Assembly: GCF_900095305.1 (NCBI RefSeq)
Contig: NZ_FMDO01000013.1
Span: forward strand, 1 to 64,000
Source: Proteiniborus sp. DW1
Lineage (GTDB): Bacteria; Bacillota; Clostridia; Tissierellales; Proteiniboraceae
Direction of reading: 5' to 3'
DNA: 64,000 nt
Shown: positions 60,082-63,959 of the stretch, piece by piece
Layout: every line of letters begins with the position of its first letter
Numbering within the stretch: position 1 is the first letter of the stretch
Notes under the pieces: model-generated
Told to the model about the DNA's origin: nothing
Seen by the model: only the letters and a program-made list of their open reading frames with translations
Database searches by the model: none
Program-made: the position numbers and the translations under genes

Positions 60082-60110
60082 TTGCAATATGTAAAAAATG
60101 GTGGTATTAT
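60082..60110 (+). promoter_or_regulatory. Promoter of tiny-ORF leader
   Basis: TTGCAA (60082-60087), a 17-base spacer and TATTAT (60105-60110). Transcription would begin at the base of the hairpin that follows. Confidence 0.55.
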
Positions 60111-60114
60111 GAAA

Positions 60115-60142
60115 AGGTAGCCTAAGTTAGTAGGCTTTACCA
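60115..60142 (+). promoter_or_regulatory. 5' hairpin of the leader
   Basis: GGTAGCCT pairs with AGGCTTTACC (small bulge) at the expected 5' end of the transcript; nine bases later comes the AAGGAGG of the first tiny ORF. Confidence 0.5.
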
Positions 60143-60167
60143 ATAATGAAAAGGAGGCCGTGAAAAG

Positions 60168-60242
60168 ATGTTAATGAGAACTTTGAACACAACTAATAAA
60201 ACTGAAAACAAAAATAATAGCGGCCTGTGGATAATAAAATAA
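60168..60242 (+). CDS. Tiny ORF A, 24 residues (leader peptide candidate)
   Basis: Begins MLMRTLNTTNKTENKNNSGL and ends WIIK. It has a strong AAGGAGG ribosome site. AGGCCG inside that site region (60155-60160) pairs with CGGCCT (60221-60226) inside the ORF, so translation and RNA folding are linked. Leader peptide or small protein; no homologue is recognised. Confidence 0.45.
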   Translation: MLMRTLNTTNKTENKNNSGLWIIK

Positions 60243-60281
60243 TTATAAAGTTATATCATTATAATTTTAAATTAGTTTATT

Positions 60282-60312
60282 AGTCGCAGGCACATAGTCT
60301 GCGACTTTATTT
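60282..60312 (+). terminator. Leader terminator 1
   Basis: AGTCGCAG pairs with CTGCGACT, loop GCACATAGT, then TTATTT. Confidence 0.7.
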
Positions 60313-60409
60313 AAGTTTTGCATAAGTGACTAGTATAGAATCTAATATTCTGTCTATCTACTTGTGTTTATTCAAACTGTATTATGTTTTTTGCTAATAA
60401 ACTAAAGCT

Positions 60410-60441
60410 AGTCGTAGGCTATTTCCTACGACTTTTATTTT
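60410..60441 (+). terminator. Leader terminator 2
   Basis: AGTCGTAGG pairs with CCTACGACT, loop CTATTT, then TTTATTTTG. Confidence 0.8.
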
Positions 60442-60468
60442 GTCGTAGGATACACCTGCGGCTTTTTT
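60442..60468 (+). terminator. Leader terminator 3
   Basis: GTCGTAGG pairs with CCTGCGGC (with one G-T pair and loop ATACA), then T6. Its left arm repeats that of terminator 2, so alternative pairings are possible. Confidence 0.7.
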
Positions 60469-60524
60469 GTATTTAATTATTAGCAACAAATCACTATTAT
60501 GTAATTTTAAAGGAGGTGATGTAT

Positions 60525-60629
60525 ATGACTAGCTTTTTGTTAGAGTTATTATTATTTCCTAATCTTAGGAAACATACTGGCTTTGAAGAATATGCCAGAC
60601 TTGAGCTTAAAAAGCATTACAGATTTTAA
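60525..60629 (+). CDS. Tiny ORF B, 34 residues
   Basis: Begins MTSFLLELLLFPNLRKHTGF, then EEYARLELKKHYRF. Its hydrophobic start and basic end could make a small membrane-associated peptide. It has a near-perfect AAAGGAGGTGAT ribosome site. Function unknown. Confidence 0.5.
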   Translation: MTSFLLELLLFPNLRKHTGFEEYARLELKKHYRF

Positions 60630-60669
60630 AGATTAGGATAGTCTAAGAAAATAAGAGGAGGTTTTTGAA

Positions 60670-60756
60670 ATGATTATATTATTAAAAGGTAGCACAAATA
60701 AAAGAAATAATGAGGTATCAGAAAAACTAACGTCTGATTTTATTGATAACACCTGA
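60670..60756 (+). CDS. Tiny ORF C, 28 residues
   Basis: Begins MIILLKGSTNKRNNEVSEKL. AGAGGAGG lies nine bases upstream. Followed by a 12-bp hairpin at 60770-60799 with no T-run. Function unknown; it may be a leader peptide for the GNAT fusion gene. Confidence 0.4.
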   Translation: MIILLKGSTNKRNNEVSEKLTSDFIDNT

Positions 60757-60769
60757 CATTCTTAGTATA

Positions 60770-60799
60770 AGCAGATGAAGGCTTATTGCCTCATCTGCT
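60770..60799 (+). promoter_or_regulatory. Hairpin between tiny ORF C and the GNAT gene
   Basis: AGCAGATGA-A-GGC pairs with GCCTCATCTGCT; no T-run follows, so it is likely an RNA stability or folding element. Confidence 0.45.
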
Positions 60800-60866
60800 A
60801 TAATCCTAACATTATAAAATTAATTATTTGTTGATACTTGCTGTAAATCAATAAGGGAGGTACAAA

Positions 60867-63800
60867 ATGGGAGACATTAAAATAGTAGAATATGACAAAG
60901 CATATGCGAAGTCATTAGCAGACATGTGGAATATGAGTGCTGACAGTTGGGGTAACTCTGGTAGCATATATACTGAAGAAAGTGTAATTGAAGAAAATGA
61001 AAACACAGGTAACTTAAACATATATATAGCATTAGATGGAGATGAGGTGGTTGGATATTGTAGTTTTTCAGAATACAGAGAGGATGAAGGAGCCTTATAC
61101 ATTCCTTTATTAAATGTTCGTCCAGATTACCACGGAAAAAAGGTGGGAAAGGCATTAGTACTTCAAGCTGTTAAGAGAACTATAGAGTTAGGATGGCCTA
61201 GGCTTGACTTATACACTTGGCCTGGCAATACAAAGGCAGTCCCTTTATATAAAAAATGTGGCTTTTTCTGGGAAAAAAGAGATGACTCCACCCATTTAAT
61301 GAATTTTATACCTACAGTATTGCAAACAGAAGCCGTACAAGAATTCTTTGAGGCGTTTGACTGGTATCAGGATTGTAAAAGAAATATTGATGTAAAACCA
61401 GATGGAAGTGAAGAAGATAATTTTTCAAACTATGAGTACATATGGGAGAAAGATGGAAAGCATCTAAGAATGGCCTTTGACAGGAAGGGAAGAGGTTTAC
61501 GTTTAATAGAGACTGATGATTATCTAATAAGTGCAGATATCCAAGAGCAAGAACTTGTATTCGGCAAGGAATACAATATTAGCTATAATATTGTAAATAA
61601 AACTGGAAATAAATTAGATATAGCTATTAATGGTAAGGATGATAAAAATATAAAGTTTTCCTTTGAAACGGTTTCGTCAGTAGAAGATAAGAAAACTGTA
61701 ACCGCTAGATTTTTTGTTGATGCAATTGAAGAGGAACAAAATCATTGGAGAACTCATCCTTGTGTAACAGCTGATATAACAATCAATGGGAAAAGTGCTG
61801 TATTTAAGGTAGGAATAAATCCTAAGTTTCCAGCAAAGATTTCTTTATCAGCACCTAATACACATAAGTTAAAAAATATGAACTCAGAATTCTATATCGA
61901 TATTGAAAACAGCTTTAAGGAAGAGGCAGTATTTCAGTTTGTCTTACCTGAATCAGATAATATAATAATTCAAAATAGGAGCTTTAATGTAACTTTAGCT
62001 GCACAAGAAAAAGCTTCTATAGCTGTGCCATATATTTTAAATAAACCATTTTCATATGAAGCTACCCTAAGTATTAAGGCAAGTCTTTCAAATAATTTTG
62101 TAGAATTTAAAAGAAAGATATCCTTACAATTTAGCGGCTATGATGGTAGATTCGGCGGAGAAACAGACGAGTATTGGTGTGTGTTTAATGGAAATTACTC
62201 GTTACAGTTAACTAAATTTAATAATGACTTAATATTAAAGAGAATACCTGAAACCAGACATGAAGTGGTAGTATTTTATCCAAAGATTGGCTTACCATTT
62301 TCTCTAGAATTCTCAAAAGAAAGACCTTACACAGTAGAGAACTACTGTGGAGAGGATTATATTGCTTTAAAAGCTTTTTATAAGTCAAGAGACTTTAAAC
62401 ATATTCAGATAGTATCTATATCTAAATTATATGCTAATGGTTTAGTTGAACACAGCTACGAGGTGCATAATACCAGTGATGTAGATGCTGATGCTGAAGT
62501 ATGGTTAAGTCAGAGCTACTATTATGGGCTTGCAGATGCTGTTATTCCATATGAAGATAAATACATAGAAATAGATGGAGAAGATAGTAGCGGTTTAGAG
62601 TTTTGGGATAGCAGTAAAATTACTGAGAACTGGATTTTCTCCAGTGAAAAAAGTGCAACTATCGGTCTATGCTGGCCAGAGAAGGATAAAATAAAATTTA
62701 ACGGCTGGTATTTGTCAATTGAAAAAAATCTAGGTAAGATTCCTGCACATGCAAATATATGCACAGAACCATGCTATATGGCAATAGATACTTTTAAAGA
62801 TTGGAAGGAATTAAGAAAATTTGCATTGAAGGATAATTGTCAAGACAGGAGTAGATTGAGTACGACTGATAAGCTTGAACTAAATATTAACAATGGAAAT
62901 CCATTTGTAGGTAATGGCTTTGATGTGAAGATAAAAGATTATAGAAAATCATATTTTGATGGAAAAATGAAACTAAGCTCGACTAAGGAATCCTTTAAAG
63001 AGCTTGAGAAAAAATTCAGCGTTACTGATCAAATTAATGAAACTGTATTTTCTGTTAATGGAGGTAATATCCCTAAGATTGATACACTTTCATTAGACAT
63101 TGATTTCGATGCAGTATTGCTACAAAAGAAATCTGCAGTATTTAAAATTAATGAAAATGTAATATTTAAGAAGAATAAAAATATGGAGAAGGGAATAGAG
63201 ACATTATCATTGGATAACGGAGAAATAACAATTAAAACCTCTCCACAGTTTTCAAATACTATACACTCTCTATTATATAAGTCTAAGGAATGGTTAGATA
63301 CTTCATTTCCTTCATCTAGACCTAAATCATGGTGGAATCCATGGTTTGGTGGGATAGCAACATTGCCAGATGAAATGACTAACAGGTCATTTAATGAAGA
63401 AGATAGAGAAGCAGATTTCGTACAGCTAAAAGATAGTGTGGGAAATACTTGGAGTGGAATAGTCATAAAAACAAATATTAAGAAAAATGAAAAACTCAAG
63501 GGACTTAAGATAGCGCAATACTATTTAATGCTTCCAGGAGTTCCAGTTTTGTGCCAAACTACTGAAATTGTTCAAGAGACAGGTTATTATTTTAGCTCTA
63601 TGCCTTTCATGACAGATATGTATTTTAAGCTAGATGATGAGTATAAAAACAACATGGTAACCATAGAGACTCTTTCAGGACAATTAACAACTTATAAGGC
63701 TGTAAAGGATTATGAAATGAAAACAAAAGGAACCCTGTTTTTCAGTAGTGTAAATAGAGAAGATAAATTGATGGTATATAATAATGGAGATATTCCTGCA

Positions 63801-63959
63801 GGCTGTTTTACTAATAGTGAAGTAATAGGAGCTTATATAATTAACAAGATGGATATTAAGAATAATGAGAGAATTTTTTTGCCACCAAGTTTCCTAATAT
63901 TCACTAAAGAAGTAATGAATCATGATTTGTTTAAGGTTTTAAAAAATATAAAGTTTTAG
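60867..63959 (+). CDS. GNAT acetyltransferase fused to a very large C-terminal region
   Basis: 1030-residue protein. Residues about 1-150 are a GNAT domain: YIALDGDEVVGYCSFSEY, LLNVRPDYHGKKVGKALVLQA (acetyl-CoA loop) and GNTKAVPLYKKCGFFWEKR. The remaining 880 residues are rich in beta-strands and aromatic residues with several immunoglobulin-like stretches (IVNKTGNKLDIAING, VHNTSDVDADAEVWLS) and a final region (WWNPWFGGIATLPDE) that recalls carbohydrate- or glycoside-processing folds, but I recognise no family there. There is no signal peptide. An amidohydrolase gene follows after 12 bases. GGGAGGT precedes the ATG. Confidence 0.75.
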   Translation: MGDIKIVEYDKAYAKSLADMWNMSADSWGNSGSIYTEESVIEENENTGNLNIYIALDGDEVVGYCSFSEYREDEGALYIPLLNVRPDYHGKKVGKALVLQAVKRTIELGWPRLDLYTWPGNTKAVPLYKKCGFFWEKRDDSTHLMNFIPTVLQTEAVQEFFEAFDWYQDCKRNIDVKPDGSEEDNFSNYEYIWEKDGKHLRMAFDRKGRGLRLIETDDYLISADIQEQELVFGKEYNISYNIVNKTGNKLDIAINGKDDKNIKFSFETVSSVEDKKTVTARFFVDAIEEEQNHWRTHPCVTADITINGKSAVFKVGINPKFPAKISLSAPNTHKLKNMNSEFYIDIENSFKEEAVFQFVLPESDNIIIQNRSFNVTLAAQEKASIAVPYILNKPFSYEATLSIKASLSNNFVEFKRKISLQFSGYDGRFGGETDEYWCVFNGNYSLQLTKFNNDLILKRIPETRHEVVVFYPKIGLPFSLEFSKERPYTVENYCGEDYIALKAFYKSRDFKHIQIVSISKLYANGLVEHSYEVHNTSDVDADAEVWLSQSYYYGLADAVIPYEDKYIEIDGEDSSGLEFWDSSKITENWIFSSEKSATIGLCWPEKDKIKFNGWYLSIEKNLGKIPAHANICTEPCYMAIDTFKDWKELRKFALKDNCQDRSRLSTTDKLELNINNGNPFVGNGFDVKIKDYRKSYFDGKMKLSSTKESFKELEKKFSVTDQINETVFSVNGGNIPKIDTLSLDIDFDAVLLQKKSAVFKINENVIFKKNKNMEKGIETLSLDNGEITIKTSPQFSNTIHSLLYKSKEWLDTSFPSSRPKSWWNPWFGGIATLPDEMTNRSFNEEDREADFVQLKDSVGNTWSGIVIKTNIKKNEKLKGLKIAQYYLMLPGVPVLCQTTEIVQETGYYFSSMPFMTDMYFKLDDEYKNNMVTIETLSGQLTTYKAVKDYEMKTKGTLFFSSVNREDKLMVYNNGDIPAGCFTNSEVIGAYIINKMDIKNNERIFLPPSFLIFTKEVMNHDLFKVLKNIKF

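Follow-up and report, generated by a model that had tools for sequence, protein, structure and literature searches.

The region upstream of the gene for a 1030-aa GNAT-domain protein in Proteiniborus sp. DW1 is, with a probability that we put at roughly three in four, a ribosome-mediated transcription attenuator, which, as judged from its sequence, would drive a pair of small proteins and probably also the GNAT gene. The computational analysis of this region and its relatives revealed the elements of the leader, conserved pairings that exclude one another, an upstream open reading frame (ORF A) that is kept open, constraint on a family of small proteins and a leader that is common to exporter and GNAT genes. 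Throughout, the window refers to the whole stretch of 64,000 nucleotides that was analyzed.

Elements of the leader region

All elements considered here lie on the forward strand. The interval from the promoter-like site up to the GNAT gene (60082-60866) is 785 bp long, rather than the 820 bp given in a preliminary description of this DNA, which had been made from the sequence alone. The promoter with a spacing of 17, the three tiny ORFs, the three terminators and the GNAT gene that it listed were, nonetheless, all found in their places. The promoter-like sequence, TTGCAA-17-TATTAT with a TG before it, spans 60082-60110, and similar sites were seen by eye before ORF A in relatives. As the segment 59000-62000 contains 22 promoter-like sites, as compared to 15.6 +/- 4.1 in shuffled sequences, the promoter alone should be considered weak evidence; transcription would start near 60117. 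The 5' hairpin of the preliminary description is present at 60116-60141 but was not counted as part of the switch, because no clear counterpart was seen by eye in G002, a genome of the same genus. The ribosome site of ORF A with its extension, GGAGGCCGT, lies at 60153-60161 and is followed by ORF A itself, of 24 codons, at 60168-60242. Within ORF A, a segment at 60220-60230, here termed X, can pair either with the ribosome site (60220-60226 with 60155-60161) or with the 5' arm of the first terminator (60223-60230 with 60284-60291). An AT-rich spacer hairpin between X and this terminator (60232-60282) appears in predicted folds and is weak or absent in several relatives.

Three terminator-like hairpins then follow, namely T1 (60282-60306), T2 (60410-60433) and T3 (60442-60462), all of which are also found in G002. 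In total, 5 terminator-like sites were found in 3 kb when both strands were considered, as compared to 1.0 +/- 1.0 in shuffles. That the three are built from a common TCGYAGG stem, as proposed earlier, is borne out by the occurrence of GTCGYAGG, with 4 of the 6 copies in the 64-kb window falling in the leader region and 0.32 expected in all. The genome of the window has the strict hairpin GTCGYAGG-loop-CCTRCGAC at a single place, as does G002 at the syntenic place; this hairpin is thus not a general terminator of the genome, and it is absent from G001. Between T1 and T2, an imperfect palindrome of about 45 bases (60319-60363; L015 and L193 in G002) is found in one copy in the genome of the window, in one copy at an unrelated locus in G002 and not in G001.

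Only 62 nt after T3 comes ORF B (60525-60629), with 34 codons for a 34-aa member of a protein family that often forms arrays, followed by ORF C (60670-60756), with 28 codons for 28 aa, which resembles the last member of such arrays and shares its -DFIDNT end with G002. A hairpin with no T run, noted by eye and with a similar one in G002, lies at 60770-60799, before the GNAT gene at 60867-63959. A search of Rfam 15 yielded no family above the gathering threshold at the window leader or at 8 related loci. The only match in the window, to the molybdenum cofactor riboswitch RF01055 (36980-37099, 80.4 bits), lies outside the leader, and with a lax threshold three matches were obtained, none of which came near the gathering score of its family.

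Pairing of the ORF A ribosome site with segment X

Sequence comparison indicates that ORF A is a regulatory upstream ORF (uORF) whose start would be sequestered by X. As X, near the 3' end of ORF A, fits both the ribosome site of ORF A and the 5' arm of T1, the two pairings are mutually exclusive. The preliminary description had claimed that the ribosome site pairs with the coding sequence of its own ORF; this pairing is predicted by folding and is kept with compensating changes, the ribosome site and X covarying as GGCCG-CGGCC, GGUCG-CGACC, GGUCGC-GCGACC, GGGUUU-AAACCC and GGCUUUU-AAGAGCC. To avoid a hand-picked X, a stretch of fixed length (20 nt) preceding the start was tested for pairing with the complete body of ORF A. 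In 12 leaders (here, as in all tests on 12 leaders, G010, G043 and G221 were omitted as near-duplicates of G026, G032 and G056), the matched mean was -14.8 kcal/mol, as compared to -10.7 when permuted, a value reached in 0 of 20000 permutations. When taken one by one, 11 of the 12 leaders stood above shuffles of their ORF A (no more than 1 of 100 shuffles being as good), the exception being G056, where the pairing was no better than in shuffles (43 of 100). The covariation also extends beyond the search pattern, as X has a pairing partner at position +1 relative to the ribosome site in 22 of 23 leaders (749 of 20000 permutations), and at position +2 in 17 of 23 (7 of 20000), with positions +3 and +4 contributing little (11 and 8 of 23; 833 and 13491 of 20000 permutations, respectively). 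As AGGYCG does not match the ribosome sites of G056, G244 and G057, these three were omitted from the counts.

The ORF A peptide, on the other hand, is not conserved. Two close pairs of leaders show only non-synonymous changes (2-3, with 0 synonymous), X can lie in any of the three frames of the uORF (in 9, 2 and 3 of 14 leaders), and neither a common residue nor common stalling codons were found among the ORF A peptides. What is kept is the open frame itself. In 14 of 14 leaders, all obtained with patterns that did not require an open frame, the uORF is open through X and stops 5-11 codons after X starts (six in the window), for which the combined probability in shuffled sequences is 7.9e-12; as G010 and G026 are close relatives, the true probability is larger than this. 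The idea of a nested, peptide-dependent attenuation was thus only partly sustained: ORF A is well described as an attenuator uORF, given its covarying start sequestration, the competition of X for terminator arms and its open frame in relatives, whereas dependence on its peptide is not supported by the substitutions and reading frames above, and no evidence was found for nested attenuation by ORFs B and C.

Predicted competition between X and the terminators

When X was picked by eye, its matched pairing with the 5' arm of T1 was better than the permuted pairing in all but 28 of 5000 permutations. As an X picked by eye could favor matched pairs, the test was repeated with a rule-based X, and 50 of 20000 permutations were then as good. 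In G018, for example, X reads CCUGCAA rather than CCUGCGA, and T1 reads UUGCAGG rather than UCGCAGG. The pairing is weak in G056, G244 and G057. X paired with T2 and with the last terminator no better than when permuted (3414 and 1615 of 5000), such that T2 and T3 are not explained by it. When X was slid along the leader, the best downstream partner was the 5' arm of a terminator in 11 of 12 array leaders (T1 in 8, T2 in 3), with an energy that at most 5 of 100 shuffles reached in 9 of the 12.

Four leaders were also folded. For the window, the minimum free energy (MFE) structure combines the pairing of the ribosome site and X with T1. Once the ribosome site and start were blocked, the MFE structure paired X with the 5' arm of T1, which then did not form, even in the presence of the complete T1 sequence. 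In a window transcript that ends at the 5' arm of T1, the latter pairing is favored without any ribosome, and the off state therefore needs the 3' arm of T1 to have been made. G038 behaves like the window, with the antiterminator predicted against a complete T1 when the start is blocked. In G026 and G018, the antiterminator is predicted only before the 3' arm of T1 has been made, and the complete T1 forms despite a blocked start.

In the window, the arms of successive terminators are also complementary to each other (T1 3' to T2 5', -11.6 kcal/mol; T2 3' to T3 5', -13.0 kcal/mol). A relay from one terminator to the next is not supported as a conserved feature, as 399 and 252 of 5000 permutations, respectively, reached the matched values, but it may operate in the window. 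T2 and T3 could thus serve as fail-safe terminators or be disarmed by such a relay.

The cassette and its leader in other genomes

G002 aligns with the window at 78% over a region that begins at a class IV aminotransferase gene and extends beyond ORF B. There, the cassette has its own ORF A and three terminators, together with two B-like ORFs and an ORF C that likewise ends in -DFIDNT; tldD/tldE-like genes, instead of a GNAT gene, come after it. G001 lacks the cassette, and tldD comes next after its aminotransferase gene. The cassette is thus a separate unit that is not bound to the GNAT gene. A leader of one plan, with a ribosome site, an ORF A of 22-42 codons and 2-4 terminator hairpins (some called by eye), precedes a B array in 15 genomes. 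The gene upstream of this leader encodes a class IV aminotransferase in 8 of the 15 (assigned by Pfam for the window, G002, G010, G026, G032 and G038, by NCBIfam for G052 and by likeness to G032 for G043), and is another gene in 6 (G018, G031, G056, G057, G221 and G244); in G012, the contig starts too close to the leader to show an upstream gene. Peptidase-like genes were seen by eye near several arrays, and B arrays with no such leader also exist.

The same kind of leader was found away from B arrays in 14 cases, chosen by eye from matches to patterns of a ribosome site plus X. All of the genes that follow were assigned by family or domain searches: seven encode ABC exporters (in G036, G010, G026, G221, G263, G398 and G355), four encode MFS proteins (G039, G354, G545 and G398) and three encode GNAT proteins (G031, G440 and G545, the proteins of the latter two having been seen in part), several of these genes being cut at the end of the fetched stretch. 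The ABC pair of G010 matches multidrug ABC exporters, with YheI/YheH (BmrC/BmrD) chains among its PDB matches, not in first place, and the MFS protein of G039 is weakly matched to drug pumps (EfpA, NorA). It should be noted that reversed-pattern controls gave 17 matches per scan, as compared to 27 and 29 with the true patterns, which alone are therefore not specific; rather, the open frame, the hairpins and the kind of gene would mark the 14 as leaders. The 27 rows of the first scan comprised 8 known array leaders, 7 others that were opened (6 leaders and G060, which is not one) and 12 that were left unopened, and this pattern misses 7 of the 15 array leaders. The 29 rows of the second scan comprised 2 known leaders, 11 that were opened (8 leaders, the doubtful L169, and L179 and L182, which lie inside genes) and 16 that were left unopened. 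Among the 14 leaders, the best partner of X fell within the 5' arm of a terminator called by script (4 leaders), within a hairpin recognized only by eye (7) or elsewhere (3), and was better than all but at most 3 of 60 shuffles in 7.

In the window GNAT protein, the GNAT domain is accompanied by about 880 more residues, in which no Pfam family scored above its cut-off, and the 879-aa part after the domain has no relative in the PDB by sequence. As a query, the 1030-aa protein yielded no relative in the related-locus search and no full-length homologue in the genus search; its use as an anchor for the cassette was rejected on account of this, of the tldD found at its place in G002 and of the lack of a cassette in G001. 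Its full-length homologue in G031 (36% over 1052 columns), which has the leader directly before it, was found only through the leader pattern.

A family of small tandem proteins

As judged from sequence, ORF B belongs to a family of proteins of about 30 aa, often encoded in tandem and mostly under purifying selection. The family was searched for with ORF B as a query and then with each widened alignment. It was found in 18 credible genomes of the 249 in the order, after 5 of 23 matching genomes had been set aside (G146, G195, G199 and G239 for long open frames, and G016 for having no small ORF with a ribosome site). A class-wide search of 391 genomes, with 5 matching genomes, of which G332 and G458 were set aside for long frames and one is that of the window itself, added G440 and G545 as carriers. 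Among the carriers are Thermohalobacter berrensis, Tissierella simiarum, Clostridium sp. Cult2, Sporosalibacterium faouarense, Anaeromonas frigoriresistens and [Clostridium] ultunense. Most members are of about 30 aa and have strong ribosome sites, and many are in tandem, the largest arrays being those of G010, with eleven ORFs (one cut short), and of G026 and G052, with seven each. The last ORF of several arrays has an end of its own (-ESTTKT, -ESITNT, -ESTNEP, -ESTIKT or -FIDNT), and ORF C, being of that kind, looks like the last member of a B array.

The combined dN/dS of array ORFs was 0.15-0.22 in five genome pairs, values that rest on few sites and, for the window pair, on a comparison near saturation (dS 1.5). 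The value for G010:C34/G026:C30 omits the first ORF pair, which is without sign of constraint (dN 0.060, dS 0.071). For ORF C alone, the comparison gave 0.55 vs 1.18. Reading-frame conservation in relatives, on which the preliminary description had made its small ORFs depend, is clear for ORF B, present as an open frame for ORF A and weak for ORF C. Its suggestion of a small-protein operon holds in part, namely for ORF B, as a member of a conserved family, and for ORF C, as a likely last array member, and not for ORF A.

No profile of Pfam, NCBIfam or PADLOC matched the 27 family members scanned; the best sub-threshold matches, each to a single member, had E values of 0.12 (Pfam) and 0.038 (NCBIfam), with none for PADLOC. 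AlphaFold predicted ORF B to be mostly helical with modest confidence (pLDDT 73.8, pTM 0.38), and the conserved part of the family is a charged C-terminal helix. A viral origin was rejected, as 0 matches to the B pattern turned up in viral_contigs. In a further scan, 37 loci were obtained, comprising 12 with B-family ORFs, 16 with a Paenibacillus-group family and 9 chance or out-of-frame matches (not all opened).

Several further observations concern these loci. The 16 Paenibacillus-group loci (L051, L054, L055, L061, L063-L066, L069, L071, L073 and L079-L083) encode a protein of 61-67 aa with a similar, EYRKIEF-type motif. In L021, L022 and L062, the Arg-Arg codons near the C-terminus (AGGAGG) double as the ribosome site of the next ORF, and in L091, L093, L097, L098 and L099, an additional ORF of 18-23 codons runs into the start of the first B ORF, an arrangement suggestive of translational coupling. 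The array of G032 is followed by a gene for an RlmB-like 23S rRNA methyltransferase (L118:3345-4088), with a score of 157.2 bits against the NCBIfam cut-off of 160.15. The leaderless B arrays of G011, G440 and G545 (L018, L132 and L131) adjoin, by eye, HTH-TPR-like genes, which are divergent in G440 and G545.

Proposed mechanism and alternative explanations

In the mechanism that we propose, transcription would start near 60117, and with no ribosome at the start of ORF A, the ribosome site would pair with X, T1-T3 would form and transcription would stop. Normal translation of ORF A would bring the ribosome to the stop codon, about six codons after X, where it would mask X and the terminators would form again. 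An early stall in ORF A, such as a translation inhibitor could cause, would instead leave the ribosome site covered and X free to pair with the 5' arm of T1, T1 would be blocked and the polymerase would proceed towards ORF B, ORF C and the GNAT gene, with ORFs B and C encoding small proteins, of which that of ORF B is predicted to be mostly helical. This presumes that T2 and T3 would be read through and that a single transcript would extend from ORF B to the GNAT gene, which might also have a promoter of its own. That the signal is an early stall in ORF A, and that drugs targeting the ribosome are natural inducers, is suggested by the likeness to vmlR and bmrB and by the kinds of genes controlled. 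A further and rather doubtful extension is that the B/C arrays, of 1-11 tandem genes, are new small effectors made when translation stalls, which would act as protective factors on the ribosome or on an exporter, beside the exporter and GNAT genes of the regulon, and that one antitermination event, at T1, suffices to disarm the window terminators in relay. Any role of the small proteins is putative.

Other explanations should be considered. The leader could be a translational switch only, in which pairing of the ribosome site with X would act on ORF A or on RNA stability, a short RNA would end at T1-T3, and ORFs B and C and the GNAT gene would be transcribed from other promoters. That this pairing is by far the best supported, that some B arrays have no leader and that the antiterminator is unstable in some leaders are in line with such a switch. 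We consider it unlikely, however, given the preference of X for terminator 5' arms in 11 of 12 array leaders, with some coevolution, the short distance from T3 to ORF B and the position of other leaders directly before exporter and GNAT genes. These same exporter and GNAT genes also speak against amino-acid attenuation, by which ORF A would sense that certain amino acids, Asn for instance, are scarce in an organism that uses peptides. The Asn content of ORF A (5 of 24 residues in the window, 6 of 24 in G002), the aminotransferase gene before 8 of the 15 array leaders and the peptidase-like genes near several arrays could be read in this manner, yet Asn richness is expected in an AT-rich genome and the ORF A peptides have no residue in common, such that we hold this explanation to be quite improbable.

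Finally, ORFs B and C could be signaling peptides of the RRNPP quorum-sensing kind (PMC10075063), with the leader tuning their production. The likeness to these systems lies in the three leaderless arrays that adjoin HTH-TPR-like genes. Nonetheless, no such gene was seen by eye among the listed genes beside the leader-driven arrays, including the window cassette, where no receptor gene is evident, no classical signal peptide or other secretion signal is apparent by eye, and the conserved part of the family is its charged helix, all of which make this explanation very improbable. PSM-like or leaderless bacteriocin peptides were considered as a further possible reading of these ORFs.

If attenuation as proposed here is true, the leader represents an undescribed attenuator family, by which a range of Clostridia would respond to stalled translation by turning on exporters, acetyltransferases and small proteins, a single design of leader being common to unrelated genes. 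A family of proteins of about 30 aa that is absent from the profile libraries searched would then be given a candidate inducing condition, and the tandem terminators with common arms would clearly illustrate how a polymerase may get past several terminators in one event.

Comparison with known attenuators

Nothing in the portions considered of two RNA-motif surveys (PMC8632094, PMC11109978) was recognized as the window leader. The excerpts of the open-access full-text literature brought up vmlR, cplR, bmrB and others, and likewise nothing recognized as this leader, which is no proof of absence. In common with drug-resistance attenuators, the leader has a predicted translatable uORF before an intrinsic terminator and a predicted anti-antiterminator that sequesters the start of the uORF. 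As to a resistance gene, exporter-type genes are found in relatives, with a GNAT gene in the window. The conserved 3-codon uORF of the vmlR/cplR subtype was not found in the leaders considered here, where uORFs are of 21-42 codons and the peptide is not conserved.

According to the report on Bacillus subtilis (PMC9226507), the vmlR leader consists of an anti-antiterminator that contains the uORF, an antiterminator and an intrinsic terminator, which are mutually exclusive, with stalling on the uORF leading to read-through. The same three exclusive states are predicted for the window leader. It differs in that vmlR has a 3-codon uORF (MIN) and an ABC-F gene, whereas the leaders described here have uORFs of 21-42 codons with X inside, 1-4 terminators and genes for small proteins, GNAT proteins, ABC exporters or MFS proteins. 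The cplR leader of Clostridioides difficile (PMC10201436) is induced by antibiotics, as the window leader may be, and resembles the latter in having the uORF in a 5' hairpin with anti-SD elements; it differs from it by a 3-codon uORF (MRI), an ABC-F gene and a main-gene ribosome site inside the terminator. The bmrB leader of bmrCD in B. subtilis, for which PMC4191407 describes transcription attenuation induced by lincomycin, is similar in its longer uORF and in that several of the leaders found here precede ABC exporter genes; the terminator of bmrB, however, lies inside the uORF, whereas the terminators here come after the uORF stop.
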